From IMG/VR virus record IMGVR_UViG_3300044447_000013, positions 1-47,444 of that record: a stretch of 47,444 nt of DNA, one strand, 5' to 3'. Shown in pieces: positions 5,342-44,747 of this stretch (positions are counted from its first letter, which is position 1; each line of letters opens with the position of its first letter). Position numbers and translations under genes: made by a program. The stretch comes from a virus. A model generated the notes under the pieces. It ran no database searches. It was not told where the DNA came from and saw only the letters and a program-made list of their open reading frames with translations.

Positions 5342-5356
5342 CCCTTCTAGTCGTCG
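5342..5356 (-). promoter_or_regulatory. Start-associated motif, copy 1
   Basis: Minus strand reads CGACGACTA-GAAGGG-GTG. The TAG inside the motif is also the stop of the upstream gene. One of seven occurrences with the same spacing to a start codon. Confidence 0.7.
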
Positions 5357-5559
5357 TTAGTTCGTTCGAGGTTCACGCGGACCACGGGGTCGTCTTCGCC
5401 TACACCGCCAAAGCAGCTACACTCGCGACGCTGGTGCGCTACTGATCCCATCACCATCCGGATCGTGCATTCGTAATGGTAAATGCGAAGGTGCGCCGGT
5501 ATGCGGTCGGAACCGCGTTCTTCCGCGGTCACGGGTTCGTTGCAGTTCGGGCAGTTCAC
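5347..5559 (-). CDS. Small zinc-ribbon protein, 70 aa
   Basis: GTG (5559) overlaps the stop of the upstream gene (GTGA). CPNC at residues 3-6 and a C-x-C pair (ECSCFGG) near residue 48 give a treble-clef or ribbon-like zinc site; a lone Cys occurs in YHYEC. The upstream extension of this frame is Arg-rich and not coding-like. Function unknown. Confidence 0.65.
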   Translation of the reverse strand: MNCPNCNEPVTAEERGSDRIPAHLRIYHYECTIRMVMGSVAHQRRECSCFGGVGEDDPVVRVNLERTNDD

Positions 5560-5768
5560 AGCGCGCCCCTCCGCATCGCCGCGATGGCGGCGTTCGCTTC
5601 GCCTTCCGTGTAAATCTCGACGAGCGGCGCGGACTCGACCTCGCCGACGCACGCGCTACAGAGATCCGCCTCGACCCAGTGGCACGACTGACCGGCAAGA
5701 TCAACGCACGCATCCTCGTCGGTGCAGCCGCACACGCGGCACTGAGCGGTCACCAGGCCGCCTCTCAT
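5556..5768 (-). CDS. Cysteine-rich CxxCGCT-type protein, 70 aa
   Basis: The pattern QCRVCGCTDEDACVD, then CHWVEADLCSAC gives at least six clustered Cys plus His, likely two zinc sites. This C-x-x-C-G-C-T/D...C-x-W...L-C-x-x-C arrangement recurs in phage and mobile-element proteins of unknown function. The C-terminal helix (EGEANAAIAAMRRG) may mediate contacts. Coupled at both ends by 4-nt overlaps. Confidence 0.65.
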   Translation of the reverse strand: MRGGLVTAQCRVCGCTDEDACVDLAGQSCHWVEADLCSACVGEVESAPLVEIYTEGEANAAIAAMRRGAL

Positions 5769-6286
5769 AACTTCTCCAGATCCGCGCGCCGGTACTTCCG
5801 CGAGAGCCGCGCGACGCGCCCTTCGCGAGCGAGGCGGCGAATCGTGTTGGCTGGCAGGCCCGTGAGGCGCACAGCCTCGCCCATCGGCACGTAAATCGTC
5901 TGCAGCGCGTTCCGCGAAACGTCTTCCGCGACGCCGGCGAGGCGGGCCAGCGCAGCGGCGAGTCCGCTAAATGTCTCGGTCGAGCGCGCGTCGATGCTGT
6001 CTGAGATGGTCGCCAGCGCGGAGTCTTGCACGCGAAACGTCGTCTTCTGCGCGTTCACGATGCGCTCGACGTCGCCGGGGTGGAAGATCGAGACGCGCGC
6101 CTGCCCGGGCGCCGTGCGGAACTTCTGCTCGATCTGCCCTTTCTTCGCGAGGCGTTCGATCTGCTTTTCGCTCGCGCCGATGGCTTTCGCCGCCTCGGGC
6201 TTCGTGAGCCACGCGCTAAGATCGGGCTCGGTCGCGCGCGTGTCGATGCGGTCTATCGTCGCTGCTGCTGTGCCTTCATTTTCCAT
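5765..6286 (-). CDS. Double HTH (MerR/excisionase-like) regulator, 173 aa
   Basis: Two DNA-binding modules. The first, about residues 24-75, begins WLTKPEAAKAIGASEKQIERL and has the HTH-wing layout of excisionase/MerR-type domains. The second, about residues 130-173, begins YVPMGEAVRLTGLPANTIRRL and ends in a basic wing. Each is preceded by a copy of the D-x-I-D-x-R-x-T-E element (residues 12-20 and about 94-103), suggesting an internal duplication or fusion. It could act as Xis or as a repressor, but is not beside the integrase. Confidence 0.7.
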   Translation of the reverse strand: MENEGTAAATIDRIDTRATEPDLSAWLTKPEAAKAIGASEKQIERLAKKGQIEQKFRTAPGQARVSIFHPGDVERIVNAQKTTFRVQDSALATISDSIDARSTETFSGLAAALARLAGVAEDVSRNALQTIYVPMGEAVRLTGLPANTIRRLAREGRVARLSRKYRRADLEKL

Positions 6287-6509
6287 CGGGAGCCACCTCG
6301 CGCCTGCTGGCTTGCAGCGATTCCAGTTCCTTAACCGCGTCTTGCAGCAGGCGGCGGACTACGGCAAGATCACCGGCGGTGATGTGAGGTTTGCCTCGAA
6401 ATATGGTGAGCATCCGTTTGATCCACGCCTTGATTTCTCCCGGCGTCAGATCGGCGCTCTCGGTCGCGCGCGTGTCTATGCGGTCGGGCGTTGTGGTTTC
6501 AGGCGACAT
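6276..6509 (-). CDS. Small helical protein with N-terminal DRIDTRATE element, 77 aa
   Basis: ATG at 6509. Residues 9-17 are DRIDTRATE, the dispersed element; the rest is one compact helical domain (TPGEIKAWIKRMLTIFRG...LAVVRRLLQDAVKELESL). Overlaps its downstream neighbour by 11 nt. Unrecognised. Confidence 0.6.
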   Translation of the reverse strand: MSPETTTPDRIDTRATESADLTPGEIKAWIKRMLTIFRGKPHITAGDLAVVRRLLQDAVKELESLQASRREVAPDGK

Positions 6510-6825
6510 CGGAGGCTCCCCTTCGGTTTGGCTTGACCTTCTCCTGGTAGTACTGCCGGGCGTATTGCCGCCTCGCCTCCTTTTTGGCCTCCTCGTCCTC
6601 CGTGCCGTGCGCGCGCGAGGCGGTTGGAGCCACGAGCGAGGCGAGATACTCGGGCGTGTGCCAGATTACCCGCTTCCCATCTTGGCCGCAATACATGACG
6701 CGGAAACACTCGTCGCAGAGTGTATGGCCCTCGGCGGCATGATCGCCACAGCCCGTGCCGCAGGGGATTGGATCGCTCTCGGTCGAGCGCATGTCTGAGT
6801 TGTCTACCTTCTTTTCGTTTTCCAT
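6499..6825 (-). CDS. Zinc-finger protein, 108 aa
   Basis: Residues 11-16 carry a degenerate dispersed element (DMRSTE). A Cys/His cluster follows (CGTGCGDHAAEGHTLCDECF, about 22-41, then YC), compatible with two zinc ions. The basic C-terminal helix KKEARRQYARQYYQEKVKP suggests nucleic-acid binding. ATG at 6825 has AGG about 6 nt upstream. Confidence 0.65.
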   Translation of the reverse strand: MENEKKVDNSDMRSTESDPIPCGTGCGDHAAEGHTLCDECFRVMYCGQDGKRVIWHTPEYLASLVAPTASRAHGTEDEEAKKEARRQYARQYYQEKVKPNRRGASDVA

Positions 6826-6873
6826 TTCGACCTTTCACTTCGTACTTGAACCTGATGAGCATCTCACATGCTT

Positions 6874-7392
6874 TCACTTCATACTCGAACTTTCTATCAG
6901 CACCTGCGCGCCGACCTCGGAACACGTCGTGTCGATCGAGCCGTCGCGCCAATTCGGGCGCGGCCCTTTCCCGTCGCGCCACGCGCAGAACGCCGCCCAC
7001 CACGCGCAGCGGAACTCGCCGCAGACCATGCAGCGCCCCGTGCGGTCGACCTCGAACGTCGGACCGCGTCGCGCGATCTCGGCGTTGAGCGCTTCGAACT
7101 CGTCTTCGGTATTGCGGAACGTGAGCGTAAACCTAATAGAGGTGAGATCCGCGCCCGGCGTGTTGGCGTACCTGAGTTGAGACGCCTCGGTCGAGCGCGT
7201 GTCTACTCCGTCTGGGATGGTGGGGCGCACGAAAGTTATCGAACCGATGACCTCATACGTTCCGCCCGCCGCCGGATCGACGCCCACGATCGCGCGCGCC
7301 GCTTTTCGCGGCGCCCTCCGCCCGCGCTTCGGCTCGCGCCCCGGGATCGGCGTGAGGGGCGCGCCGGGTCGCCATGCGAAGGGCTTTTTCAC
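6874..7392 (-). CDS. Hypothetical protein with zinc-site and dispersed element, up to 172 aa
   Basis: The GTG at 7392 overlaps the previous stop (GTGA). The first 54 residues are basic and low complexity. The DGVDTRSTE element occupies residues 61-69; an internal GTG (MRPTIPDGVDT) would place the element at residues 7-15, as in its paralogues, so the start is uncertain. After it comes a beta-rich domain (LTSIRFTLTFRNTEDEFEALN) and a possible metal site (CMVCGEFRCAWWAAFC). Function unknown. Confidence 0.55.
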   Translation of the reverse strand: MKKPFAWRPGAPLTPIPGREPKRGRRAPRKAARAIVGVDPAAGGTYEVIGSITFVRPTIPDGVDTRSTEASQLRYANTPGADLTSIRFTLTFRNTEDEFEALNAEIARRGPTFEVDRTGRCMVCGEFRCAWWAAFCAWRDGKGPRPNWRDGSIDTTCSEVGAQVLIESSSMK

Positions 7393-7667
7393 GCGTCGTA
7401 CCTCGGATCGTCGCCGAGTGAGGCGAGCTGCGCATAAGCGTGGAAGCCATCCTCTCGCAGGCGTTTAATCATTCTGTCGACCACCTCGCGAGCGGCCTTA
7501 GCCGATGGTCCGTTGTTTTGAGGATGGCGGAGGGACAATTGCAGGCCGCCAATCACAGCAATCGCCGCGACGAGGTCCATATAAACCGGCAACACATAAT
7601 CCTTCTTACCCTTGTTGTGTTCGACAGCGACCTCGGCGAGCAGCTTCTCGACGTCTTCCGGTTTCAC
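7389..7667 (-). CDS. Hypothetical protein, 92 aa
   Basis: GTG start overlapping the HNH gene stop. Predicted helical (KPEDVEKLLAEVAVEHNKGKKDY, then AAREVVDRMIKRLREDGF) with a hydrophobic stretch (YMDLVAAIAVIGGLQLSL) too short and polar-flanked to be a sure membrane span. Unrecognised. Confidence 0.6.
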   Translation of the reverse strand: MKPEDVEKLLAEVAVEHNKGKKDYVLPVYMDLVAAIAVIGGLQLSLRHPQNNGPSAKAAREVVDRMIKRLREDGFHAYAQLASLGDDPRYDA

Positions 7668-8110
7668 GCGCCCGTCCCTTCCGGCATTTCCGCCGCTCGC
7701 AAAATCGGCCTCGTCGCATCCTTGCGCGTTGAACGCGTCTCGCGATGGTGAAGCTTGTCGTAATTAAGGTGGCACCACTGACAGAGGGCCTTCAGGTTCT
7801 CGTCGCGGTCATCGCCCGCAACGTGGTTGAGGTGGGCGATAGTGAGCACCACGCGAATATTGCGGGGAAGGGCGGGGAAGGCAACGTTTAGATCAATCTT
7901 CCCGGTATGGTCGCGCCAGTAGAGCCCCTCCGCGCATACCCACCACATACACCGCCGCCCCTCGACGACGCGCGTGAACGTGAACACGCGCGCCCCGTTC
8001 GGCTTTCCGCACTCTTCGCAGCCATCGCCCGCACGCGCGAGGATGCGCGAACGCGTCTCGAACCAGCTCGTTCCGCGGTAGAACTGCGCGAGATCCTTAC
8101 CAATCGGCAT
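7664..8110 (-). CDS. HNH endonuclease, 148 aa
   Basis: The zinc-binding HNH fold is clear: C31-x-x-C34 (CEECGKPNG), the catalytic strand TIAHLNH (H93, H96), N105 in DENLKALC, and C110-x-x-C113-H114 (CQWCH). Length fits small phage HNH nucleases. Such enzymes nick or cut DNA; near terminase they assist packaging, but this one sits in the accessory leftward block, so a homing or defence-related role is as likely. ATG at 8110; overlaps the upstream gene by 14 nt. Confidence 0.85.
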   Translation of the reverse strand: MPIGKDLAQFYRGTSWFETRSRILARAGDGCEECGKPNGARVFTFTRVVEGRRCMWWVCAEGLYWRDHTGKIDLNVAFPALPRNIRVVLTIAHLNHVAGDDRDENLKALCQWCHLNYDKLHHRETRSTRKDATRPILRAAEMPEGTGA

Positions 8111-8378
8111 AGGCCGTGTCCTTCTTCGCGCGCGCGAGCACGCTTTCGAGCATCTTCTCTTCGACCGCGGCCGCGCACTCCAGCGCTTGCTCGATATCGA
8201 CGTCGGTCGCGAGGTAAAGCGCGCTCGCGCCCTGGATGATCGACTGCATCCGCAACGCGATGCCCGCGATGAACTGCGCGCCCGTCGTCGCGTCGAGTTC
8301 GTCCATGACGAACGCCGCGAGGTTCATGAGTTCGCCGAGCGCGATGCGGCGGTCGCGCGAAACGAACGGCTTAGGCAT
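8097..8378 (-). CDS. Hypothetical helical protein preceded by repeated leader ORF, 93 aa
   Basis: ATG at 8378 lies within the end of a 28-codon leader ORF, one of three related leaders in the window. The product is all-helical (RRIALGELMNLAAFVMDELD, FIAGIALRMQSIIQGASALYL). Unrecognised. Confidence 0.6.
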   Translation of the reverse strand: MPKPFVSRDRRIALGELMNLAAFVMDELDATTGAQFIAGIALRMQSIIQGASALYLATDVDIEQALECAAAVEEKMLESVLARAKKDTAYADW

Positions 8379-8457
8379 TGGCGCACCTGTCGCGACGAAA
8401 ACCGTCGCTTACGCTTCGCAGTGGGATTACAAGGCGCGAAGACAAAAAGTGGTTCAT
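8371..8457 (-). CDS. Repeated leader peptide, copy 1, 28 aa
   Basis: Sense strand ATG (8457) to TAA (8373-8371): MNHFLSSRLVIPLRSVSDGF, then RRDRCANA. Contains the hairpin GCGACG-GTTTT-CGTCGC. The stop overlaps the start region of the 93-aa gene. A one-base deletion relative to copies 2 and 3 changes the last residues. Similarity to the other two copies is spread over about 80 bp and includes the amino-acid sequence. Confidence 0.55.
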   Translation of the reverse strand: MNHFLSSRLVIPLRSVSDGFRRDRCANA

Positions 8458-8459
8458 AG

Positions 8460-8657
8460 TCACCTGCGCCGCCTTTCCGCTGCGGCGGCCGCTTCGCGTT
8501 CGCGTTCCGCGGCCTCGGGCGCGCGCTGGCTCGAAAGGATGCGCAGCAGCGCCGCGTTGTTGGCGCGCACGCGGACGATCTCGCTCGTCAGCCACAGGTT
8601 GATGACGAAGAGCACGAACGAGCCGCACGCGAGCAGGTAGAACGCGAAGTTCGTCAC
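8460..8657 (-). CDS. Single-span membrane protein with Glu/Arg tail, 65 aa
   Basis: Residues 4-25 (FAFYLLACGSFVLFVINLWL) form a membrane span; the rest is a charged helix (EIVRVRANNAALLRILSSQR, then EREREAAAAAERRRR). The topology resembles small holin/spanin-like or exclusion peptides. It ends 2 nt before the leader peptide ATG. Confidence 0.6.
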   Translation of the reverse strand: MTNFAFYLLACGSFVLFVINLWLTSEIVRVRANNAALLRILSSQRAPEAAEREREAAAAAERRRR

Positions 8658-8941
8658 GCGCCCTCCCCGCTGTGCCCATAGAGCCGCACTTTCAGCCCCG
8701 CCGCGTTCGCGAGCCAGCCGTGCTCGATCTCGCGCAGGAACGTGTGCGCTTTCGCGCCGGCGAAGCGATAGAGCACGTCGCCCGACGCCGGATCGACCTC
8801 GCTCCCCTCGAACGTGACGCGCCGCGTCGTGACGGCGCCCTCGCGGAAGTCGGACTCCGCGAGCAGGTAATCGTCGAGGCGGACCAGGTCCGCCGCGTGC
8901 AGTTCGGTCGCGCGCGTGTCTACTCGGTCTGACGGCGTCAC
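8654..8941 (-). CDS. Hypothetical protein with N-terminal DRVDTRATE element, 95 aa
   Basis: GTG at 8941 overlaps the MerR-type gene stop (GTGA), which supports this start over the longer Arg-rich frame. Residues 5-13 are DRVDTRATE. The rest is a small alpha/beta domain (TTRRVTFEGSEVDPASGDVL, AHTFLREIEHGWLANAAGLK). Unrecognised. Confidence 0.6.
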   Translation of the reverse strand: MTPSDRVDTRATELHAADLVRLDDYLLAESDFREGAVTTRRVTFEGSEVDPASGDVLYRFAGAKAHTFLREIEHGWLANAAGLKVRLYGHSGEGA

Positions 8942-10191: not shown

Positions 10192-11264
10192 GAATCACCT
10201 CCCGCGCCGTGCGTCTTCTCGGCCCGCTCGCGTTCGGCCCGCTCGCGAGCGTTCCGCTCCATCTGCTCTTCCTGGTAGCGCTGGTCGAAGTGGGCTTTCT
10301 CAGCGAGAAAGGCGACTTCCTTTCTATGCGCAGCCCCGATCTGTTGAGCCAGGTTCCTCAAAAGGCCATGATTTTCAGTAAAGCCGCGAGCGCGCCGGCG
10401 GACCAGGGCGAGGAAATCGGCGTGCGGCGCGTCGCCCAAGCGGCGAAGCACGTCGCGCCAGAGGGGCGCCTCAGCGGCGAGGTTTTCACGTAGAATCGGG
10501 AACAAGATCTCGTTCACCGCGGCAAGCAAACCCGCACTCGAGTGCGGGTTTCGCTCCCCTTCGTCTTCCTCAACCGCCTCCTCAATACCCGCACTCGAGT
10601 TCTGGTTTCGTTCGCTAAGTTGTTCATCTATAAGGCCGAACTTTTGCGCGAGTCCGCAGGTCTGCGCGTTTGGGCACGCTTCCGCGAGCGCAATCGGCGG
10701 CCCTCCGTTAATCTGAACGAAGACGGCGGACGGCGCGGCCTGACGTAAAGCCCTTAGGGGCGGGGAACTGCCGACCTCCGCGAAACCCGCACTCGAGTGC
10801 GGGTTTGCGTCGACGATCCCTTCCGACTGGGGCGGCTTGCGGGTGACCGTCCGCGGATCGCGCAAGGGAGCCTTCAGGAAGTTCTGGTCGAGAGCCTTGT
10901 ACTCTCTGCCGCGGCCGGCGCGGCGGACCAGGAGCAGTTGCAAGCTGTCCTCCGCGAATTCGAGATCGTCGTCCTCGTCAGGAAGATCACCCGGCGCCCA
11001 GCGCCCGATTTTCTTGAGCGAGCGGTGCACAATTTCGACGCTGACGTTTGCCTCGTCAGCGAACTCCGCCTCCGTGATGCGCACCCAGTCCGTCCCTTGC
11101 AGGCAGTACATACGATCGACGACAGTGCCGACAATAGAGTGTTGGGTGGGAGTGCAGCGCTTCTTCAGCTTGAAATAGGAGCGCGGAATCTGTGAGTACG
11201 GGGCGCGCGGCGCGGGTCTAACCCGCGGTTCGGGGGTTTCTAGTTGTTGTTGGGTGCCGGCCAA
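10188..11264 (-). CDS. Replication initiator-like protein carrying internal iterons, 358 aa
   Basis: Likely start TTG at 11264 (MAGTQQQLETPEP); the open frame extends to 11423 but the added part is basic and unlike the rest. The N-terminal domain (RSYFKLKKRCTPTQHSIVGT onward, through ITEAEFADEANVSVEIVHRS) resembles a winged-helix replication protein. The middle holds three in-frame copies of a palindromic DNA repeat, read as NPHSSAG, NQNSSAG and NPHSSAG. The C-terminus is a charged coiled coil (RYQEEQMERNARERAERERA). Organisation parallels lambda O, whose gene contains its own origin iterons. Function inferred. Confidence 0.65.
   Translation of the reverse strand: MAGTQQQLETPEPRVRPAPRAPYSQIPRSYFKLKKRCTPTQHSIVGTVVDRMYCLQGTDWVRITEAEFADEANVSVEIVHRSLKKIGRWAPGDLPDEDDDLEFAEDSLQLLLVRRAGRGREYKALDQNFLKAPLRDPRTVTRKPPQSEGIVDANPHSSAGFAEVGSSPPLRALRQAAPSAVFVQINGGPPIALAEACPNAQTCGLAQKFGLIDEQLSERNQNSSAGIEEAVEEDEGERNPHSSAGLLAAVNEILFPILRENLAAEAPLWRDVLRRLGDAPHADFLALVRRRARGFTENHGLLRNLAQQIGAAHRKEVAFLAEKAHFDQRYQEEQMERNARERAERERAEKTHGAGGDS
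10528..10608. repeat. Origin-type iterons 1 and 2
   Basis: Iteron 1 is a 24-bp perfect palindrome at 10528-10551 with core CCCGCACTCGAGTGCGGG. Iteron 2 at 10587-10608 has an intact left arm (ACCCGCACTCGAGT) and a degenerate right arm (TCTGGTTT). Both lie within the initiator gene. Confidence 0.75.
10783..10806. repeat. Origin-type iteron 3 (perfect 24-bp palindrome)
   Basis: Same AAA-CCCGCACTCGAGTGCGGG-TTT palindrome as iteron 1, in the same reading frame of the initiator gene. Confidence 0.75.
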
Positions 11265-11301
11265 AGCATCTTCTCTTTTCCTTCGCCTCGCCGTTGGCCG
11301 C

Positions 11302-11517: not shown

Positions 11518-11538
11518 CGTGCCGCCTTCCCGATTTTA

Positions 11539-11924: not shown

Positions 11925-11963
11925 CCTACGTGAAACCGCCGTTACAAGCAACATCTTTTTAAG

Positions 11964-12065: not shown

Positions 12066-12110
12066 CGCGCCCCCCTCCTTATTGATGAGAGAGAGATATA
12101 AACCCCTTAA

Positions 12111-13461: not shown

Positions 13462-13628
13462 CCGAGGCCGAGATCAGGGAAATCATAGCGCTTGCTGACT
13501 CTCAAACCGAACGTGCAAGGGAACTACAGCTCGCGCAGATTCGATTCAACGAGGCCAGGGGCAAAGTGTCAATGTACCTTTGGGATCTCGAACGCGAGTC
13601 GCGAGAGAAAACGCCTCGCGACGACTAA
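13458..13628 (+). CDS. Small coiled-coil protein, 56 aa
   Basis: ATGA overlap with the sigma factor stop. A single charged helix (TEAEIREIIALADSQTERAR, then ELQLAQIRFNEARGKVSMYL). Co-translated with the sigma factor, it could be an anti-sigma or partner peptide, but nothing proves it. It ends in the start-associated motif (PRDD-stop). Confidence 0.55.
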   Translation: MTEAEIREIIALADSQTERARELQLAQIRFNEARGKVSMYLWDLERESREKTPRDD

Positions 13629-13634: not shown

Positions 13635-13826
13635 GTGGACCCTCTCTTTCTCACGCTGATCCTCTGTAGCACCGTAGTTCTCGTCGCTTCGTGCTTTGAC
13701 CGCAAACCCCGGTTCATTGTGGACTTCGACGGCATTCACCTCGAAGCTCACTCGGCCGAAGACATGGAGGTACTGCTCGACGCCGTCGCCGAGTTCAATA
13801 GGCCGGCCCCGGCGGCAAGCGAGTAA
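13635..13826 (+). CDS. Membrane-anchored small protein, 63 aa
   Basis: GTG start set by the start-associated motif. Residues 3-21 (PLFLTLILCSTVVLVASCF) form a membrane anchor; the cytoplasmic or periplasmic remainder (KPRFIVDFDGIHLEAHSAED) is a short beta/alpha domain. Unrecognised. Confidence 0.6.
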   Translation: MDPLFLTLILCSTVVLVASCFDRKPRFIVDFDGIHLEAHSAEDMEVLLDAVAEFNRPAPAASE

Positions 13827-13827
13827 C

Positions 13828-14250
13828 ATGCCTGCCAAACCTACTACCGTTAAACCATCGCTTTCAGAAATCGCCGCCGCCGCGCTCTCGTCGAACGTGG
13901 ACGAACTCGGCGCGCTCGAGCGCGACCTCGCGCCGTTCGCCCTCAAAATCGCCAGAGTGAAATCGCTCCGCGAAGCAATTCGAGGGCACTACGACTCGAA
14001 GCCGGGCGACTCGGTTTTCATGGCGTACGGCGAGAAGTTCTGTGTCAGCCTCGGAATGAAGTCGCGCGAAGCTACCCGGAATATCCCCAAGCTGATCAAG
14101 CTGATCGGCGCGCGGCTGTTCAATTCGATTGCGACCGTCACGGAGAAAGCGCTCAAGGCGGAAGTGCCCTGCGCCGTGATCGACGAGTGCACGACGTACG
14201 CGCTCACGGGCTTTCGTTCCATGAAAGTGTTCGAGCGAGGACAAGCGTGA
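13828..14250 (+). CDS. Hypothetical helical protein, 140 aa
   Basis: ATG at 13828, one nt after the preceding TAA. Layout: helical N-terminus (KPSLSEIAAAALSSNVDELG), charged segment, then YGEKFCVSLGMKSREATRNI and a C-terminal Cys pair (VPCAVIDECTTYAL). No family is recognised. Coupled to the next gene by GTGA. Confidence 0.6.
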   Translation: MPAKPTTVKPSLSEIAAAALSSNVDELGALERDLAPFALKIARVKSLREAIRGHYDSKPGDSVFMAYGEKFCVSLGMKSREATRNIPKLIKLIGARLFNSIATVTEKALKAEVPCAVIDECTTYALTGFRSMKVFERGQA

Positions 14251-14963: not shown

Positions 14964-15821
14964 TCAAAGCGCGCGCCTTGTGGCCCATGCTTTTTTCTTA
15001 ATATCGCTTCTCCCTTGCGCAGTTTTACCCGCCGATGCTTTGCGGCTCCGTTCGCTACGCTGTTCGGGGGTCAACTGCGCGGCGATCTTTTTACCGATTG
15101 CGCTTCGTTCCTCGGGCGCCCTACTGTTGTTAGCTTTTTTCGTAATAGCGCTTCGTTGTTCTGGAGTTTGACTGGCCCGCATCTTTTTAAAGCGATCAGC
15201 GCATGCTTCGGAACTTCTACCGCCAGTCGATGCTTGCCACAGCGAGAGCTTCTGTTCCAGGGTCCTCTTCGCCCATCGCTCCTTCGCGATATTGATTCGC
15301 TGTTCCGGAGGAATACTAGATTGAATCGCTTTCGCGCGATTACTCCTCTGCTCGAACGTCATCGAAGCGTTCGCTTTTCGAGCGGTCTCGCTTCTTTCCT
15401 CCGGCGTTTTACTGGCGTTGACCTTTTTTATTCGAGCGCTGTGTTGTTCATGCGTGAATTTGGCGCTTCTATTCTTCGCCACCTCGCTACGCTGTTCGGG
15501 CGTTCCCCAATTAAGGGTTCCGTCGCCTCCGTCGGTAGTATTTACAAGCCGCGCCCCGCGCGCGCGGTAGATGGCGATCCACCGGCGTTCGGCTTCGCTC
15601 CAGCCGTTTCCAGTGCCAGTTTCGATCACTTCGATCAACGGGATCAGTCCGATACTGACAAGCGACATAATCCACCTTTGCCGGTACGTCTCATGCGGCT
15701 TTCTAACCGAATCGCCAACATGAACGCGCAGCCTCCATTTCGGGCTCTTCGAAGTCCACCCCACATAGCGGACCTCATTTGTACGCGGGTTTTTTAAGAC
15801 GTAAATCGACCAGTTGAGCAA
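14964..15821 (-). CDS. GIY-YIG homing endonuclease with NUMOD-like repeats, 285 aa
   Basis: N-terminal GIY-YIG nuclease: IYVLKNP (6-12) and VRYVGWT (17-23) give the variant GIY and YIG strands, with Arg after them and the Glu-containing helix SEAERRWIAIYRARG near residue 75. Residues about 105-285 consist of repeated TPEQRSxxAKK-type units (at least seven), as in NUMOD3-type DNA-binding modules. TTG start at 15821. AT-richer than its neighbours and on the opposite strand, just before terminase, which marks a mobile homing gene insertion. Confidence 0.88.
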   Translation of the reverse strand: MLNWSIYVLKNPRTNEVRYVGWTSKSPKWRLRVHVGDSVRKPHETYRQRWIMSLVSIGLIPLIEVIETGTGNGWSEAERRWIAIYRARGARLVNTTDGGDGTLNWGTPEQRSEVAKNRSAKFTHEQHSARIKKVNASKTPEERSETARKANASMTFEQRSNRAKAIQSSIPPEQRINIAKERWAKRTLEQKLSLWQASTGGRSSEACADRFKKMRASQTPEQRSAITKKANNSRAPEERSAIGKKIAAQLTPEQRSERSRKASAGKTAQGRSDIKKKAWATRRAL

Positions 15822-17980: not shown

Positions 17981-18735
17981 GCGCGCCCACGGTCGCAGCC
18001 GTGATGCTCGTGAACGGCCGCGAAGCGATGACGCGCCGCGCCGTCGAGTGCGTTCGCGCGCAGACGTATCCTTGCACGCTCGTGATGCTCGACACGGCAG
18101 AAGATTTCTACACGGGCCCACTGGCGCCGCATTGCGTGTATCGTCACCGCCCGGACCTCGAGCGGACGCGAAAGACGATAGGCGAACTCCGCAACACTGC
18201 GAACTACGTCACCGACGCGGACATCATCGTGCATTTCGACAGCGACGACTACTCGCACCCGCGCCGCATCGAAGAGCAAGTCGCGCTCCTCGAAGCGAGC
18301 GGCGCTGACGCGGTCGGCTACAACGAGGCGCTGTTCTGGCGCGAGCACCGGCACTGCAACTGCGCGCCGGATGCGCTCTCCCAGAACTGCACGGCGCGCG
18401 CCCCCGCCGCGTGGCTCTACGCGAACGGCGATCCGCGTTTCTGCCTCGGCGCGTCGCTCGCGTATTGGCGGCGCGCGTGGGCGCGAAAGCCGTTCGCGGC
18501 GACCTCGCAGGGCGAGGATTTTCGGTTCTGCCTGGGGCTGCGAACCGTAGGCGTGAGTAGCGTTCGCGTGATTCGCGACTTTGAGCAGCCCCCGGTTGAG
18601 TGCAAGGAGCCCCGCTTCATCGCGCGCATTCACGCGGGCAACACGTCGAACGCGTACCGCGGCATCGAGAACGCGAGCGAGTGGCGGCGCGCGCCGGAGT
18701 GGGACGCGTACTGCCGCGAAAGGATGGCGCTGTGA
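17977..18735 (+). CDS. Family-2-like glycosyltransferase, 252 aa
   Basis: GT-A fold: nucleotide-binding N-terminus (TVAAVMLVNGREAMTRRAVE), the DxD region HFDSDDYSHPRRIEEQVALL (about residues 85-104), and an acceptor-side region with GEDFRFCLGL. Expected to transfer a sugar from a nucleotide-sugar. GTG at 17977 overlaps the HTH gene. Acceptor unknown: virion protein, DNA base or host surface glycan. Confidence 0.72.
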   Translation: MSAPTVAAVMLVNGREAMTRRAVECVRAQTYPCTLVMLDTAEDFYTGPLAPHCVYRHRPDLERTRKTIGELRNTANYVTDADIIVHFDSDDYSHPRRIEEQVALLEASGADAVGYNEALFWREHRHCNCAPDALSQNCTARAPAAWLYANGDPRFCLGASLAYWRRAWARKPFAATSQGEDFRFCLGLRTVGVSSVRVIRDFEQPPVECKEPRFIARIHAGNTSNAYRGIENASEWRRAPEWDAYCRERMAL

Positions 18736-22779: not shown

Positions 22780-23657
22780 CCATCATGCCTGTAAGAAATG
22801 AGGCGTGGGTGTTGGGCTTCACCGCGCGCGCGCTGCTGCGCTGGGTCGACGAGCTGGTGATCCTCGACCACGCGAGCACGGACGGAACGCGCGGCATTCT
22901 CCAGCAACTTGAGCAAGAATACAGCGGCAGGCTAATCCTACTGCGTGAAGACAATCCGATATGGGAGGAGATGCGTCACCGGCAAAATCTTCTCGTGTGG
23001 GCGCGCAAGATCGGCGCAACCCACGTCGGATGCATTGACGCCGACGAGGTGCTTACCGCGAACGCGCTGCCGGACATCCGCGCGATGTTCGAGAGCGCGA
23101 AGCCCGGCGAAGTACTCATGCTGCCCTGGCTCTGCCTCAAGGGCGGCCTCGACACGGTGCACGCGAGCGGCGTCTGGGGCGAGCAGAACGCGAGCGCGGG
23201 CTTTCTCGACGATCCGGTCTGGCACTGGAGCGCGGAAGGGCGCGGCGGCTACGATCACCATCACCGGCATCCGATGGGGCGCGCGGGCATTCCGTTTCAC
23301 CCGGTACCCAACCGGCGCGCGGGGCTGATTCACTTGCAGTTCGTCTCGGAGCGGCGCTTACTCGCGAAGCAATTCCTCTATCAGCTCATCGAGCGCCTGC
23401 GATGGCCCGACAAGTTCACGGCGGCCGAGATCCGCGCGAAGTACTCGCTCACGGTTCACGCGCACCAGGTGAGCGCGATCGCGCCCGCGCCCGCCGCGTG
23501 GCTGAGTGGCTACGAGGACATCCTGCACCACCTGCACATCGACGCCGAGCCGTGGCAGCTCGCGGAAGCGCGCCGCATCGTCGCGGAGAATCCGGGCATT
23601 GAGCAGGGGCTCGACGACTTCGGGGTGCTGGCGGCAGCGCCCGCGACGACTAAGTAA
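22767..23657 (+). CDS. Family-2 glycosyltransferase, 296 aa
   Basis: Clear GT2 features: IVAIMPVRNEAWVLGFTARA at the N-terminus, LVILDHASTDGT near residue 32, and the DxD in GCIDADEVLTANALPDIRAM near residue 90. A His-rich segment (GGYDHHHRHPMGR) and a helical C-terminus follow. Last gene of the cassette before the portal. Confidence 0.85.
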   Translation: MRIVAIMPVRNEAWVLGFTARALLRWVDELVILDHASTDGTRGILQQLEQEYSGRLILLREDNPIWEEMRHRQNLLVWARKIGATHVGCIDADEVLTANALPDIRAMFESAKPGEVLMLPWLCLKGGLDTVHASGVWGEQNASAGFLDDPVWHWSAEGRGGYDHHHRHPMGRAGIPFHPVPNRRAGLIHLQFVSERRLLAKQFLYQLIERLRWPDKFTAAEIRAKYSLTVHAHQVSAIAPAPAAWLSGYEDILHHLHIDAEPWQLAEARRIVAENPGIEQGLDDFGVLAAAPATTK

Positions 23658-23659: not shown

Positions 23660-25660
23660 GTGAACATCCGCCGCCGCATCCGAAAGCTACTCCTACGCAT
23701 CGAGGCCGCGCTGCGGCCCGCGCCCGTCGCGCCCGATCTCACGGGCGTCGTGCGCGAATTCGGCACGCAGCTCGTCGAGCAGATGCAGCGCGCGGACTTT
23801 CAGCGCCGCGACCAGGTCGAGCGGCTGCACGAACTCGCGGAAGCGCGGCAGATGCAGGGCACCGGCCCGTGGCAGGAAGCCGCGGGCGGCATTTCGAGCG
23901 CGCAGCTCGCGCAAGGGTTTGCTCAAGATGCCGCGCCGCTGCGCGAGTCGGGCCTCTCGGCCACCGGCGCGATGGGGCAGCTCGAACTCGACTTGCAGAA
24001 CATCGAGTGGCGGCGCGAAATCAATAACTCGTGGCTGGAGTTCTCGCGCAACGGCATCCAGCAGATTATCTTGTTGTGCCGCCTCTACTTCCTGAAAAAC
24101 CCGATTGCGCGGCGGCTGATCAACATCGTCGCGTACTACGTGATGGGGCGCGGCATCGAGGTGTCCTCCGACGATGGGCCGACCAACGACGCGATCAAGG
24201 AATTCCTCGAAGCCAACAAAGCCGTGATCGGCCAGACGGCGCTCGCGGATCTCGTGCGCAAGTCGATCTACGACGGCAACCTATTTTTCGTTTTCTTCCC
24301 GGACACGCAATCGACGGGCGCGGTGCAGGTCCGCACCATCGACGCGATTGAGATTCAGGACATTGTCACGAACCCGGACGACACCACGGAAAAGTGGTAC
24401 TTCCGGCGCACGTTCACGACGCGCACGTTCGACACGGCGACGGGCGCGATCTCGTCGACGCCGGGCGAGGCGTGGTATCCGTCCATCGGCTACGACCCGG
24501 CGGAGAAGCCGCAGACGATCAACAACGTGCCCGTGATGTGGGCTTCGCCCGTCTATCACCGCGCATACGGCACGGTCGGTAAGTGGCTGTTCGGGTGCCC
24601 CCCGATCTACCCGGCGCTGGACTGGATCAAGGCGTCGCGGCGTTACCTCGAAGCGTGCGCCACGCTCGCCGCGGCGCTCGCGCAATTCGCGGTCACGATC
24701 ACGACGAAGGGCGGCTCGCAGGCGCTCGCGGGCATCAAGCAGCAGCTCGAAACCACGGTCGGACCGAATACCAACCTCTACGATCAGAACCCGCCGCCCG
24801 TGAACGCGTCGACCTTCGCGTCCGGACCCGGCACGAAGATGGAGGCGTTCCACTCGCGCGGGCAGGGGCTCGATCCGAGCGAATGGAAGCCATTCGGCGC
24901 GATGGCGTGCATCTGCCTCGACGTGCCGCCGACGTGGATCGGCGATCTCGAAACCGCGAATCTCGCGACAGCGCAGACGCTCGACCGGCCCACGGAACTC
25001 GCGATGATGGAGCGGCAGGAGGTTCTGCGCGAGGTAGTCGTGACCATCGTGACGTACGCGCTAAACGTGCAATTGCGCGCGCCTGGCGGCAAGCTTCGCG
25101 AGCGGCTAAGCAAGATTCACGACGTCTCTAATCTCCGCGTCGTGGAAGCGCCGCGCAAGCAAACCATTGAACTCGGGCGGACCCGCTTCACCTACCTGAA
25201 TGAGGCGGGAAGGGAGAAGACGGGGCAGATCCAGAAGGACACCGATCTCGAAATTAAAGTAACCTTCCCCTCGATCCGCGAAGGCGACATTCCGGCGCTC
25301 ATCGGCGCGGTGGTCGAGTCGATGACGCTCGCGAACAAGGGCGGGCAAATCGTAGGGATCGACGAAAAAGAAGGCGTGCGCAAGCTGTTCGAGCTGAACG
25401 GCTTCGAGAACGCGGATGAGATGGTCGAGGAGATGTACCCCTCGGACGGCGACAACGCGTACGACCCGAACCGCACCATCGAAGACGCGGCGGACATTCA
25501 GGCGGCGATTCCCAAGGCCGCACCCGCGCCCACCGGGCCGCAGGTTCCCGGCGGCAAGCAACGCGCGATGGTGGACAAGACGCCGGGGCAGGAGGCGTTG
25601 ACGCGGTTAGGATGGAGCGTGGAGCGCGTGCGGAAGCTGCTGGAAAGGAAGGCGGCGTAG
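23660..25660 (+). CDS. Portal protein, 666 aa
   Basis: Forms the dodecameric vertex channel for DNA. Portal features include NPIARRLINIVAYYVMGRGI, KSIYDGNLFFVFFPDTQSTG, the RTIDAIEIQDIVTNPDD clip-like region and the PTWIGDLETANLATAQTLDR segment near residue 430. Longer than HK97-type portals, with a Pro/Ala C-terminal extension. The next gene begins on its stop codon. Confidence 0.85.
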   Translation: MNIRRRIRKLLLRIEAALRPAPVAPDLTGVVREFGTQLVEQMQRADFQRRDQVERLHELAEARQMQGTGPWQEAAGGISSAQLAQGFAQDAAPLRESGLSATGAMGQLELDLQNIEWRREINNSWLEFSRNGIQQIILLCRLYFLKNPIARRLINIVAYYVMGRGIEVSSDDGPTNDAIKEFLEANKAVIGQTALADLVRKSIYDGNLFFVFFPDTQSTGAVQVRTIDAIEIQDIVTNPDDTTEKWYFRRTFTTRTFDTATGAISSTPGEAWYPSIGYDPAEKPQTINNVPVMWASPVYHRAYGTVGKWLFGCPPIYPALDWIKASRRYLEACATLAAALAQFAVTITTKGGSQALAGIKQQLETTVGPNTNLYDQNPPPVNASTFASGPGTKMEAFHSRGQGLDPSEWKPFGAMACICLDVPPTWIGDLETANLATAQTLDRPTELAMMERQEVLREVVVTIVTYALNVQLRAPGGKLRERLSKIHDVSNLRVVEAPRKQTIELGRTRFTYLNEAGREKTGQIQKDTDLEIKVTFPSIREGDIPALIGAVVESMTLANKGGQIVGIDEKEGVRKLFELNGFENADEMVEEMYPSDGDNAYDPNRTIEDAADIQAAIPKAAPAPTGPQVPGGKQRAMVDKTPGQEALTRLGWSVERVRKLLERKAA

Positions 25661-26426: not shown

Positions 26427-27349
26427 GCCTCGTGCTCAAGCGCCGCGCGCGGCGGCTCGACGCGGCGGCCGCCGATCTCGAAGACGCGGTGGATGCTGCC
26501 GAGACGGTCCTACCCGGCACAACCCCCCAAGGCGATGGGAGAGCGCACGAACAGCTTAGCGAATCGCTCAAGCACCCGCGCCACGCCGTCTCGCTCGCGC
26601 CGATCCGCGCGGGCGTCGAACGCGTTCTCGCGCGCTTCTTTCGCCGGCAGCAGGCGCTGCTGATCCCGCAGATCAGCGAGCACTTGCGCCACGTGGTCGA
26701 CAACAATAAGAATCTGAAGGAGCGCGAAGAGCAGTCGCTCGACGCCATCTTCTACGCGTTGCCGGACGGCACGCTGCTTCCCGCCGCCGTCACCGCCGGA
26801 ATGGCGGCGGACTACGCGTCGCTCGTCAAGGCCGCCGTGAACGCGGGCTTCGCGAGCCTCGCGGACGAGATCACCAGCGACGCCGCGAAGCCCGCACTGA
26901 ACCCAAGCGACACGTTCGTCGCGACGTACATCCGCGAGCACTCGCTCGAAAAGCTCGCGGACGACTTGAACGCGACCACGGTCACGCGGTTGCAGAACGC
27001 GCTCGCCGACGCTTACGAGGACGGCGCGAGCTTCGAGGAGATGGTGCAGGCGATCAAGGACGAGTACTCGGACTTTTCGACGCGGCGCGCCTCGATGATC
27101 GCGCAGACCGGGATGAACGGCGCGTACAACGTCGGGCGCAAGCAGCTCGGGCTCGATCTCGGGTTTAACGAGAAGAGCTGGAATCCGGACGGTCTCGCGT
27201 GCCTGCTGTGCATGGCGAACGTCGCGGAGGGCTGGATCGGGATGGACGAGGAGTTCGAGTCGGGCGACGATCACGCGCCGGCGCACCCGAACTGCGATTG
27301 CTCGCTCGATATCCGGATGAACAACGACGCGCTCGCGAAAGCCGCCTAA
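26423..27349 (+). CDS. Mu-F-like minor head / head morphogenesis protein, 308 aa
   Basis: The C-terminal half has the family signature: RRASMIAQTGMNGAYNVGRK, KSWNPDGLACLLCMANVAEG, then AHPNCDCSLDIRMN at the end. The N-terminus is helical. GTG at 26423 overlaps the previous stop. Minor head proteins sit inside the capsid at the portal and usually follow the portal gene, as here. Confidence 0.85.
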   Translation: MSLVLKRRARRLDAAAADLEDAVDAAETVLPGTTPQGDGRAHEQLSESLKHPRHAVSLAPIRAGVERVLARFFRRQQALLIPQISEHLRHVVDNNKNLKEREEQSLDAIFYALPDGTLLPAAVTAGMAADYASLVKAAVNAGFASLADEITSDAAKPALNPSDTFVATYIREHSLEKLADDLNATTVTRLQNALADAYEDGASFEEMVQAIKDEYSDFSTRRASMIAQTGMNGAYNVGRKQLGLDLGFNEKSWNPDGLACLLCMANVAEGWIGMDEEFESGDDHAPAHPNCDCSLDIRMNNDALAKAA

Positions 27350-27492
27350 CCCTCGTACAACTGAACGTCAATCTCGTCATCCTGAAACACGGCGCCGAGG
27401 CGCTGTTCGACTTCGCGGCGTAAGGATTCCTGGCTGTGCGGCTGAATCTTGCCGTCATCGATCTCGATAGTCACTACGAACTGGTAGATCAC
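27346..27492 (-). CDS. Small hypothetical protein, 48 aa
   Basis: GTG at 27492 overlaps the stop of the gp10-like gene (GTGA) and its TAG overlaps the convergent minor head gene stop by 4 nt. MIYQFVVTIEIDDGKIQPHS, then a helix (ESLRREVEQRLGAVF) and DDEIDVQLYEG: a compact beta-alpha-beta peptide. Unrecognised. Confidence 0.6.
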   Translation of the reverse strand: MIYQFVVTIEIDDGKIQPHSQESLRREVEQRLGAVFQDDEIDVQLYEG

Positions 27493-27914
27493 ACCTTAAA
27501 CCCCTGCTTAGCATATGCCGCGAGAATCTCGGGCCGCGCCGTGTCGAGCGCGGGGCGCATCGTCGGCTGCGCCGCGTGCCCGGTCCAGCCCTGCGATTTG
27601 TGATCGTAGACCCACCCCTCAGGCGTCTCACCGGGATACGTGCCTTCGCCGCGCACGCCCGTTCCGTACTCGACGAACTCGGAATGCGGCGCGCTCGCGG
27701 TGACCGTGCCGCTCACGACCGTGCCGACGAGCTGCACGCTCGCCGTGTGGATGCCTTCGCGGAACTCGCCGCTGAGCACGGGCGCGATGGCTTGCGCCTC
27801 GGTCACGACGGCGCCGCAGCCCTCGGTCACGGCGGCCACGATCTTCGGGACGAAGAGCCGCTGCAGGCGAACGAGATCGGCGGGCTTGAACGCGGATTTG
27901 GCGGCAAAATTCAC
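27489..27914 (-). CDS. HK97 gp10-like head-tail / tail completion protein, 141 aa
   Basis: APVLSGEFREGIHTASVQL, then SAPHSEFVEYGTGVRGEG, and the late QPTMRPALDTARPEILAAYA follow the gp10-like consensus (TG-L...YA-yvEyGT...PFmrPAl). GTG start set by the start-associated motif. It is transcribed opposite to all surrounding virion genes, which is unusual for a structural gene and implies relocation or separate control. Confidence 0.72.
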   Translation of the reverse strand: MNFAAKSAFKPADLVRLQRLFVPKIVAAVTEGCGAVVTEAQAIAPVLSGEFREGIHTASVQLVGTVVSGTVTASAPHSEFVEYGTGVRGEGTYPGETPEGWVYDHKSQGWTGHAAQPTMRPALDTARPEILAAYAKQGFKV

Positions 27915-27929
27915 GCTTATAAGTCGTCG
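27915..27929 (-). promoter_or_regulatory. Start-associated motif, copy 4 (minus)
   Basis: Minus strand CGACGACTT-ATAAGC-GTG. It is half of a perfect palindrome AGTCGTCGCGACGACT (27922-27937), whose other half is copy 5 on the plus strand, so one site serves two divergent starts. Confidence 0.72.
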
Positions 27930-27945
27930 CGACGACTAGTTAGCC
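27930..27945 (+). promoter_or_regulatory. Start-associated motif, copy 5 (plus)
   Basis: CGACGACTA-GTTAGCC-ATG, preceding the leader peptide at 27946 and sharing a palindrome with copy 4. Confidence 0.72.
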
Positions 27946-28029
27946 ATGAACCACTCTTTGTCTTCGCGCCGTGCAATCCCGCTGCGCAGCGCAAGCGACG
28001 GTTTTCGTCGCGACCGGGTGCGCCAGTGA
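27946..28029 (+). CDS. Repeated leader peptide, copy 2, 27 aa
   Basis: MNHSLSSRRAIPLRSASDGF then RRDRVRQ. TGA overlaps the GTG of the next gene (GTGA). Contains hairpin GCGACG-GTTTT-CGTCGC. Its ATG is itself preceded by the start-associated motif, so translation is likely. Confidence 0.6.
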   Translation: MNHSLSSRRAIPLRSASDGFRRDRVRQ

Positions 28030-28331
28030 TTCTGCACTCCCTCACGATCACGGGCGCGAACACGAAAGTACCGCTTTCGTCCGGATCGCCCGCCATCGCC
28101 GGCTACACTTCGCCTAACTCCCTGCAATGTAAGTGGGTGCAGCTCGTCGCGTCCGGCGCCGGGATTCTCCTCGGCGGCGCGGAAGTCACGGCGAGCGTGG
28201 GCTTCCCGCTCGCGTCCGGCGCGGGGCAGTTCACCGCGCCCATCGCCATCGACACGGATTTCTACGATCTCTCGAACATGTTCGCGTACGTGCCGAACGG
28301 CACGACGCTTTACGTGCTCTACGGCGGCTAA
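28026..28331 (+). CDS. Small beta-rich virion-associated protein, 101 aa
   Basis: GTG at 28026 is coupled to the leader peptide. All-beta composition (ILHSLTITGANTKVPLSSGS, FTAPIAIDTDFYDLSNMFAY, ending GTTLYVLYGG). Placed directly before fibre-like genes, it may be a small decoration or fibre-attachment protein. Not recognised. Confidence 0.6.
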   Translation: MILHSLTITGANTKVPLSSGSPAIAGYTSPNSLQCKWVQLVASGAGILLGGAEVTASVGFPLASGAGQFTAPIAIDTDFYDLSNMFAYVPNGTTLYVLYGG

Positions 28332-29295: not shown

Positions 29296-29957
29296 GGGCT
29301 TCCCTTGCCGGGGCGGTGGTCTATCCGAAACCGGCCGGGCCGACGTTCGTGCAGGCGAAGGCCGCCGGCGTAGCCGGGCCTGGCGCGACGACTGTCACGT
29401 GCACATTTACGGCCAATGTCACCGCCGGGCATTTGATCTACGCGACCGTCTTAGGTGTTAGCAACAGCGCGGTTTTCACGTTTTCGGACGGCCAATCCAA
29501 TTCGTATACGACCATCGATCCGGCTAACGCGGTGGCCAACCCGCAGGCGTCTAACGAGGCGTTCACGATTGCCGCGTCGAGCGGCGCGCTCACGGTCACG
29601 GTAGTGGCCGGAACGTCGCAAGGCACGGGGCTGACTCTCGTAATCGCCGAACTTGCAGGCGTCACGGCGGTAGATCAGCACAACAGTGTGCAGAATGACT
29701 TTGGCGCGGTGCTGAAGTTTGTGGCCGTCACAACAACCCATGCGAAGACAATCGTCATCGGCTGTACCGGGCAAGACGCTAACACGACATATGCCGGCGC
29801 TTCCGGCTGGACACTGGGCACTCAGGTGGCCGTTCCCGGAAAGAACGCTTCAGCGGCATTCGTCTATCAGATCCAGTCGTCCACGGGAACATATACGCCG
29901 GCGATGACGGCCGCCAGCGTGAACGACCAGTGGCATTACACGGTCGCGTTTTTCTAG
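29292..29957 (+). CDS. Beta-sandwich appendage protein, 221 aa
   Basis: GTG overlaps the previous stop. The segment PGATTVTCTFTANVTAGHLI (about residues 30-49) and SDGQSNSYTTIDPAN resemble the N-terminus of the 1353-aa tail-tip protein (GASTVSCTFTNSVKAGNVIF and ADNQSNTYTEIA). A related fold is likely in the 44050 protein. Probably a host- or glycan-binding virion domain. Confidence 0.6.
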   Translation: MRASLAGAVVYPKPAGPTFVQAKAAGVAGPGATTVTCTFTANVTAGHLIYATVLGVSNSAVFTFSDGQSNSYTTIDPANAVANPQASNEAFTIAASSGALTVTVVAGTSQGTGLTLVIAELAGVTAVDQHNSVQNDFGAVLKFVAVTTTHAKTIVIGCTGQDANTTYAGASGWTLGTQVAVPGKNASAAFVYQIQSSTGTYTPAMTAASVNDQWHYTVAFF

Positions 29958-30295
29958 TCCGCGCTCGCTTCCCCCGGCGGCGCGGGCACGCCGCGAATCG
30001 CGTACGCGATCTCGGGGCCGCTAAAACGCTGAATCGACGTCTTCGGAAAGCGCCTCTCGAACTCGTCCGCGAGGAACGTCCGCATCGCTTCCGCGCCCGC
30101 CGCGAAGCCCGCGCTGCGCGCGATCTTCTTGCCGAGCGGCCGCGTCTCCTGGCGGTACTTATTGCGGCACGCCTTGCACCAGCGCGGGTAGTCCGTGGTG
30201 TCGAGCGCGCCGTGGCACTTCGAGCACTCGGTCGCGTTCTCGTTATCGGCTTCTTCTGTGGCTTTGTCTTGAGTGGGGACGACGGGTGGCTTCAC
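29954..30295 (-). CDS. Zinc-finger protein, 113 aa
   Basis: GTG at 30295 chosen because the start-associated motif lies 6 nt upstream; a longer frame exists. Four Cys (ECSKCHGALD and WCKACRNKYRQE) form a zinc ribbon at about residues 25-47; a helical C-terminus follows (FAAGAEAMRTFLADEFERRF). Opposite strand to the virion operon; its stop overlaps the convergent gene by 3 nt. Role unknown. Confidence 0.65.
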   Translation of the reverse strand: MKPPVVPTQDKATEEADNENATECSKCHGALDTTDYPRWCKACRNKYRQETRPLGKKIARSAGFAAGAEAMRTFLADEFERRFPKTSIQRFSGPEIAYAIRGVPAPPGEASAD

Positions 30296-30310
30296 GCCTG
30301 TAAGTCGTCG
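30296..30310 (-). promoter_or_regulatory. Start-associated motif, copy 6 (minus)
   Basis: Minus strand CGACGACTT-ACAGGC-GTG, defining the start of the 113-aa zinc protein. Confidence 0.7.
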
Positions 30311-30324: not shown

Positions 30325-30381
30325 CGGCGCAATGTAAGCCATTTTCGCGGCGTTTCCGGCGCAATGTAAGCCATTTTCGCG
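30325..30381. repeat. Tandem 25-bp direct repeats upstream of the capsid operon
   Basis: The sequence beginning CGGCGCAATGTAAGCCATTT and continuing TCGCG occurs at 30325-30349 and 30357-30381, period 32 bp (about three helical turns). Each contains an interrupted palindrome AATG-TAAGC-CATT. It sits between divergent genes, directly ahead of the protease/capsid operon, where a regulator could act. Confidence 0.7.
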
Positions 30382-30429
30382 CCGCGATCTTGTTCGCCTT
30401 CGGGGCGGCTGCGACGCTGCGGACGACTC

Positions 30430-34233: not shown

Positions 34234-34238
34234 CCAAG

Positions 34239-34319
34239 GTGCGCTCTGTGTCTTCGCGCCCTGCAATCCATGTCCGCAGCGTAAGCGACGGGTTTTGTCG
34301 CGACCAGGTGCGCCAATGA
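34239..34319 (+). CDS. Repeated leader peptide, copy 3, 26 aa
   Basis: GTG start at 34239: (M)RSVSSRPAIHVRSVSDGF then CRDQVRQ. TGA overlaps the next ATG (ATGA). The hairpin is kept as GCGAC-N7-GTCGC although the sequence between has changed. Confidence 0.55.
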   Translation: MRSVSSRPAIHVRSVSDGFCRDQVRQ

Positions 34320-44048: not shown

Positions 44049-44049
44049 G

Positions 44050-44724
44050 ATGTTGAGCTGCTTACCCTGGCCCGGGCCCGGAGGCGGAGCCGGAAGCACT
44101 CCGTTCACGCCGATTACGCTGCTTTCACACGCGCAGGCGATCGCCAACGCTACATCCGTCACGACGGGCGCGATCTCGACGACGGGCGCGAGCCTGATCG
44201 TGGTAGCCGTCCAATTCTATAGCGCGAGTTCGACGCCGTCATTGACCGACTCCGCCGGCAACACATGGACGCTCATCAACGTTGGATCGGGCGGCTTCGC
44301 GGTTCAGTACAACGCGCTTTTCTATTGCGCATCCCCGGCGACGAGTGGAAGTCACACGTTTACAGCTACGGCAAGCATCGGCTTTGCACAGCCGGGCATT
44401 TGCGTAACAGCTTGGAATAATACCGCGGCTTCGCCTCTGGTGGGAGCCAGCTCGGACTCCACCGCTTCGTTCTCGACGACGCAGCCAGGTTCGATCACTC
44501 CGCCATCAGGCCGATGCCTTTTCGTCACGGGCGCAGCGCAGGGCGCAGGAACATTAAATACGCCGACAGGATTTACACAGTCCGACCAAGGAACTACGGT
44601 CAGCGGATGGTCATATCAGACGTGTTACTTGGTGGAGGGAGGTTCAGCCATCGCACAGAACCCGACTTTCACCAATAGTTTTAATTGGATCTCGATCGGT
44701 ATGGCGTGCTTCACGCACATTTAA
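44050..44724 (+). CDS. Beta-sandwich tail appendage protein, 224 aa
   Basis: LIVVAVQFYSASSTPSLTDS, AGNTWTLINVGSGG and NALFYCASPATSGSHTFTAT follow the same fold pattern as the 29292 protein and the N-terminus of the tail-tip protein. No signal peptide is convincing. Probably a receptor- or glycan-binding appendage. Confidence 0.6.
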   Translation: MLSCLPWPGPGGGAGSTPFTPITLLSHAQAIANATSVTTGAISTTGASLIVVAVQFYSASSTPSLTDSAGNTWTLINVGSGGFAVQYNALFYCASPATSGSHTFTATASIGFAQPGICVTAWNNTAASPLVGASSDSTASFSTTQPGSITPPSGRCLFVTGAAQGAGTLNTPTGFTQSDQGTTVSGWSYQTCYLVEGGSAIAQNPTFTNSFNWISIGMACFTHI

Positions 44725-44732
44725 TCACTCCG

Positions 44733-44747
44733 CGACGACTAACAAGC
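44733..44747 (+). promoter_or_regulatory. Start-associated motif, copy 7
   Basis: CGACGACTA-ACAAGC-ATG. Here the motif lies in a 23-nt intergenic gap, not in a coding end, showing it is not simply a C-terminal codon preference. Confidence 0.75.

Follow-up and report, generated by a model that had tools for sequence, protein, structure and literature searches.

The late promoters of phage T4 carry the word TATAAATA, are read by gp55 with clamp-coupled activation and are not tied to start codons. Promoters read by the sigma factors of phages phiEco32 and 7-11 are well conserved and of low copy number, and a gap of one base distinguishes two that are related (PMC4331800). Those of sigma28 (FliA) follow the consensus TAAAGTTT-n11-GCCGATAA, with TAAA as the -35 core, and GCCGACAT is functional at aer (PMC2859248). 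Since 2011 phages have been known to carry start-associated motifs, for which a mechanism is lacking; the start-associated sequence of cluster K mycobacteriophages, GGGATAGGAGCCC, contains a Shine-Dalgarno core (PMC3203893). Word searches of the open-access literature found no description of a phage FliA-type sigma factor with promoters abutting start codons.

We analysed a stretch of 47,444 nt from IMG/VR virus record IMGVR_UViG_3300044447_000013, referred to as the window. It is a temperate siphovirus with integrase, terminase, portal, capsid, an HK97-gp10-like neck protein and tail genes. A 143-nt direct repeat (94%) lies at both record ends (65-207 and 47302-47444), which suggests a complete or nearly complete genome. 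The first-pass annotation had described a motif at near-fixed spacing before seven starts, rare elsewhere, with spacers ending in AGC, GGC, GCC or GGG and little sign of a Shine-Dalgarno sequence. All of this was borne out. The seven copies are exact and lie 15-16 nt from the start codon with spacers of 6 or 7 nt (Table 1), and a Shine-Dalgarno scan found no such sequence at six of the starts.

Table 1. Sigma gene, motif copies and neighbouring genes in the window.
Feature	Positions	Strand	Start codon	Spacer end	Remark
Phage-encoded sigma factor, 205 aa	12844..13461	+			FliA/WhiG-type region 2 (residues about 45-120), degenerate region 4
Gene after sigma	13828..14250	+			orthologues in three sigma-bearing phages have the element directly at the start
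Motif CGACGACTAG, proposed -10	5347..5356	-	5341	GGG	before 4814-5341, exported collagen-like protein; upstream gap 214 nt
Motif CGACGACTAA, proposed -10	13619..13628	+	13635	GGC	first proposed promoter 3' of the sigma gene; before 13635-13826, then gene 13828-14250
Motif CGACGACTAA, proposed -10	23644..23653	+	23660	AGC	before portal gene 23660-25660
Motif CGACGACTTA, proposed -10	27920..27929	-	27914	AGC	before gp10-like/neck gene 27489-27914
Motif CGACGACTAG, proposed -10	27930..27939	+	27946	GCC	before leader ORF 27946-28027 and gene 28026-28331
Motif CGACGACTTA, proposed -10	30301..30310	-	30295	GGC	before 29954-30295 (product with weak endonuclease VII-like match), divergent from 30430(+)
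Motif CGACGACTAA, proposed -10	44733..44742	+	44748	AGC	before 44748-45023
In-gene copy CGACGACTAC, outside set	18243..18251	+			codons GAC GAC TAC = Asp-Asp-Tyr
In-gene copy CGACGACTTC, outside set	23612..23620	+			codons GAC GAC TTC = Asp-Asp-Phe

There are nine exact copies of CGACGACTW in the 47.4-kb window, against a shuffled mean of 1.55 and a maximum of 5. The base that follows is A or G at the seven start copies and C at the two in-gene copies. When R is required after W (CGACGACTWR) there are seven copies, all of them before gene starts (7/7), and the motif is not equally frequent elsewhere. A matrix scan of the window was bimodal, with scores of 14.8-19.4 for the seven start sites and of at most 13.8 elsewhere. 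Conservation reaches upstream beyond the octamer, CG standing directly 5' of the motif in 6/7 sites. Of the 10,993 8-mers present at least three times, CGACGACT ranked first for fixed distance to called starts (binomial p = 7e-18, uncorrected), with 7/11 copies in one 2-nt bin ahead of them; by our own arithmetic, p is ~1e-12 once all words and offsets are allowed for. When all start codons of all ORFs of >=60 aa were used instead, 6/11 copies still fell 15-16 nt ahead of a start (p = 1.4e-7), so the choice of starts is not the source of the positional signal. Orthologues support the start codons at 23660 (portal) and 27914 (gp10-like) and, roughly, that at 30295; the start at 27946 belongs to a 27-codon ORF missed by the gene caller.

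The motif starts tend to head transcription units (5/7, against 12/64 other starts; Fisher p = 0.007), a head being a start that is divergent from its upstream neighbour or follows a gap of >=100 nt. This enrichment is supporting evidence and not decisive, since the definition of a head is crude and the gene calls behind the count came from a simple home-made caller. Motif genes 23660 and 44748 come straight after co-directional genes, which counts against the promoter reading.

The window contains a single sigma-family gene, which lies 157 nt 5' of the motif at 13619, and sigma region 2 occurs nowhere else in it. The protein matches Pfam Sigma70_r2 (1.5e-13), FliA in the PDB (6pmi, 3.4e-11) and NCBIfam sigma70-ECF (5.3e-19; 68.4 bits, passing the cut-off of 42.9). 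The FliA subfamily NF005413 is matched in region 2 only (1.3e-18; 67.7 bits, below the curated cut-off of 201). An AlphaFold2 model has a pLDDT of about 90 over residues 41-120 and low confidence at the C-terminus, and Foldseek matched it to sigma region 2 structures. From these matches we assign the product to the sigma70 family, with a region 2 (the core-binding and -10 recognition domain) closest to FliA/WhiG. A canonical region 4.2 helix-turn-helix, the -35 reader, was not seen in the window sigma, where this region is degenerate and shortened. No conserved -35 element (TAAA-like, at fixed spacing) was found upstream of the seven sites, and an ECF-type -35 (AAC) was not common to them. Compared with the sigma28 -10 element, GACGACTA of the GACGACTW motif matches only 5/8 positions ungapped, so the sequence link is moderate; a comparable difference, a one-base gap, separates the related specificities of the 7-11 and phiEco32 sigmas (PMC4331800). 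The position of the octamer is right for a -10 if the start codon is +1.

Four other phage contigs carry homologues of this sigma: G415 (61% identity over region 2), G413 and G414 (46%) and G007 (36%). The G007 sigma has a canonical FliA-like region 4.2 (SRVSQLHREAL), and CTAAG-N16-GSCGATAR occurs five times in G007, where shuffling predicts 0.0; four of these sites stand directly before starts at a distance of 5-10 nt. Because G007 has both, there is a phage in which a sigma of this family does go with start-adjoining sigma28-type promoters. The -35 element CTAAG is present in G007, where region 4.2 is canonical, whereas the window, where it is degenerate, has no conserved -35; the change in the promoter parallels the change in the sigma.

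The order of sigma gene, element and orthologue of the 13828 gene is common to the window, G415, G414 and G413, the downstream gene being orthologous in all four phages (33-36% identity). Directly before the ATG of the orthologue stands GACGACTAAGAGGGCGC in G415, GGTGACTATAACAGTGC in G414 and GGTGACTATATCAGTGT in G413, all three elements being of GACTA type. The G415 element has 15 consecutive bases in common with the window copy before 13635, whereas the surrounding DNA differs, and GACGACTAAGAGGGC is identical in this syntenic place (G415/L085). G415 also carries GACGACTA 13 nt before the ATG of its own sigma gene; its copies at 15650 and 5501, which are separated by 22 and 63 nt from the called start that follows, speak against the promoter reading. 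The orthologues of G413 and G414 have GGTGACTATAWCAGTGY next to ATG, and a single further copy of GGTGACTAT is present in each of the two genomes, again with GACTA 9 nt before an ATG. The GACTA-type elements of G413 and G414 could be read as sigma70-like boxes too. Across these phages the element thus keeps its place while its letters change with the sigma.

We put the probability at about three in four that the motif is a -10 element, read by host RNA polymerase together with the phage FliA-like sigma, and that the resulting mRNAs are leaderless or nearly so. The sigma would join the host polymerase and read GACGACTW as the -10 octamer, standing in for the sigma28 octamer at -14 to -7. As the octamer would occupy these positions, transcription would begin at, or about one base off, the R of the RTG start codon, the 5' end of the mRNA would lie at or within a few bases of that codon, and translation would be leaderless. 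Since the -10 domain of the sigma is intact and region 4.2 is degenerate, specificity would rest on an extended -10 (CGCGACGACTWR), with no -35 involved. The motif genes would then form a regulon that is turned on once the sigma is made, probably in the late or structural phase. A phage-sigma promoter would make sense of the spacing of 6-7 nt, the missing Shine-Dalgarno sequences, the occurrence in both orientations and the unrelated genes served; as expected of such a promoter, the motif occurs together with a sigma gene and heads transcription units. The first-pass annotation had proposed a translation signal, an operator or a recombination joint. None of these fits best, and a promoter fits better because the window has a FliA-type sigma gene, G007 has sigma28-type promoters and the motif genes mostly head units.

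The nearest structural relatives of the window are G009/G010 (portal 48-49%), G012/G013 (capsid 51-52%) and L065. Conservation at orthologous starts in relatives, on which the first-pass annotation had made its motif depend, held in part: the motif was not found at orthologous starts in the structural relatives, and the sigma-bearing relatives do have a counterpart, that of G415 described above. A profile search with five sigmas found no sigma in G009, G010, G012, G013 or L065, of which G009, G010 and L065 are fragments. At the portal and/or 30295 orthologues, -10-like boxes stand 6-8 nt before the start in G009/G010, G012, G013 and L066, a phage in an Acidobacteriia MAG. The 30295 orthologue has TATATT (G009) or TAAACT (G012) 6 nt from ATG, or TATAAT (G013) 7 nt from it; the portal gene has TAGACT 6 nt from ATG in G009/G010 and GGTATAATT in L066. 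At offset 6, TANNNT has 3 and 4 copies in G009/G010 against 0.09 and 0.17 expected, counts that are not independent because the two contigs are closely related. These start-adjoining boxes have the geometry of leaderless promoters. The window motif fills the same interval, yet it is no sigma70 box; TANNNT did not fit as its identity. Within L066 (2386-2565), GATTGGTATAATT occurs twice, each time 5-7 nt before an RTG and the second time at the portal gene start, and looks like a sigma70-type leaderless start-associated promoter. In the window, L063 and L064 the HK97-gp10-like neck gene lies on the minus strand, in L009/L010 on the plus strand: this segment was inverted in evolution.

A translation-initiation signal, in which the ribosome, an RNA or a protein binds the word in the mRNA to select the start, would account for the near-fixed start distance, the missing Shine-Dalgarno and the single direction relative to the gene, and has a published analogue in cluster K mycobacteriophages (PMC3203893). 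From it one would not expect a sigma gene in this phage, the enrichment at unit heads, sigma28-type promoters in the same place in G007, or -10-like boxes at equal distance before the orthologous starts of relatives, and the motif is missing where the sigma is missing. We consider this explanation unlikely. Very unlikely, in our judgement, is an operator at which a phage repressor or activator binds by the start codons, as at stoperators or a divergent palindromic operator. A perfect 18-bp palindrome with a TAGTCGTCGCGACGACTW core does lie between 27914 and 27946, where two motif copies stand back to back before a divergent gene pair 31 nt apart, and the window encodes several HTH/MerR-like proteins. 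However, the palindrome is not kept at most other sites, where CG alone precedes the motif (in 6/7). What is conserved is thus a directional unit, and a distance of 6-7 nt to the start codon is nothing that an operator would need. Neither sites independent of starts nor a dyad at all sites, as in L5-type stoperators or palindromic operators, was seen: the dyad is kept at few of the seven sites, and the distance to the start is fixed.

The portal of L066, a distant relative, is 51% identical to that of the window, and since it sits within an Acidobacteriia MAG an acidobacterial host is possible. A portal search of 399 genomes of the Acidobacteriia class gave no additional relative. Both this relative and the likeness to the sigma28 -10 would suit a promoter read by the host's own alternative sigma, such as host FliA, and not by the phage sigma. 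We think this extremely unlikely, as the element's letters change along with the phage sigma and the start-spaced motif is not above control in the MAG (6 vs 18 in the reversed control), so no host genome signal was seen there. A recombination joint, or a mobile cassette remnant making genes portable, would suit the unrelated motif genes and a separate 83-bp repeat that also adjoins three starts exactly, but its probability is negligible: the portal, gp10-like and zinc-protein (30295) genes have in-place orthologues without the motif in relatives, so these genes were not brought in with it, and flanks beyond the motif are not conserved.

Several other candidates were rejected. An IMG/VR scan with CGCGACGACTWN2-3RRGCRTG returned 18 stretches, and those examined were mostly in-gene DDY/DDF codons or single chance matches; one match, L026, is located in G007, has C after the copy and is distinct from the G007 promoter element. 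For a T7-like promoter CGACT would coincide at -12 to -8, but no single-subunit RNA polymerase is among the annotated genes; a search of the window for one also found none, a weak result because the search controls gave no signal. Rfam gave no match. A tRNA-Asp(ATC) predicted at 27235-27314 falls within a head-morphogenesis gene and is probably spurious.

Other repeats were observed in the window. The 83-bp repeat has three copies, at 8376-8457(-), 27946-28028(+) and 34236-34318(+), which end in GTCGCGACCRGGTGCGCCA exactly at the RTG start codons of three unrelated genes. It can be read as a leader ORF, with a stop codon that overlaps the next start or follows it closely, and two copies begin at most a few bases from the stop codon that precedes them. 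The relatives have no copy, and an IMG/VR scan with the repeat core gave no match. In the minus-strand early genes at 5975-8938, a nine-residue tag occurs in five early proteins, twice in one of them and mostly near the N-terminus (DRIDTRATE, DRVDTRATE, DGVDTRSTE, DNSDMRSTE and DSIDARSTE); these proteins thus have a linear peptide motif in common. At 10520, 10577, 10775 and 11954 lie four palindromes, nearly identical and centred around ACCCGCACTCGAGTGCGGGTTT, which are possible operators, terminators or replication-origin repeats. A tandem 32-bp-spaced repeat, CGGCGCAATGTAAGCCATTTTCGCGSCG, at 30325-30384 lies just upstream of the 30295(-) motif and possibly marks activator sites.

With a candidate reader encoded in the same genome, what was a puzzling start-associated motif becomes a promoter system that can be tested. 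If the phage-sigma promoter is real, it would be a compact promoter yielding leaderless mRNAs, and phage-sigma regulons of uncultured viruses could be found from sequence alone; further orphan start-associated sequences in phages could then have the same explanation. We give even odds to a wider proposal: that there is a temperate-phage family with FliA-derived sigmas in which -35 recognition was lost, the extended -10 became fused to start codons and the word co-evolves with the sigma, and that in this family one DNA word sets the start of transcription and, through a leaderless mRNA, that of translation.

Like FliA/sigma28 promoters, the window has an octamer with a CGA core, moderately similar in sequence and, if the start codon is +1, at the distance expected of a -10; it also encodes a sigma with a FliA-type region 2, and G007 has the canonical form including the -35. 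Unlike them, the window element is GACGACTW without a -35, goes with a sigma whose region 4 is degenerate, and adjoins start codons. With T4 late promoters the proposed element would share a -10-only form and a small phage sigma as reader (gp55 in T4). As in phiEco32 and 7-11, promoter words are short, conserved and of low copy number, the phage has its own divergent sigma (PMC4331800), the word also precedes the sigma gene (here in G415) and a gap sets apart the specificities of phages that are related. In contrast to those phages, the window is of a different phage type and its element is locked to start codons, which would imply leaderless mRNA. The first-pass annotation had likened the motif to mycobacteriophage start-associated sequences while calling it different, and both points stand. 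In common with the cluster K sequence it is a short asymmetric word a few nt before the starts of unrelated genes in one phage group; unlike it, the cluster K sequence has a Shine-Dalgarno core, stands mostly before ATG, on one strand and at non-structural genes (PMC3203893). On sequence, strand and Shine-Dalgarno content we therefore rejected membership of the cluster K class (PMC3203893); the two may nevertheless be alike in output.
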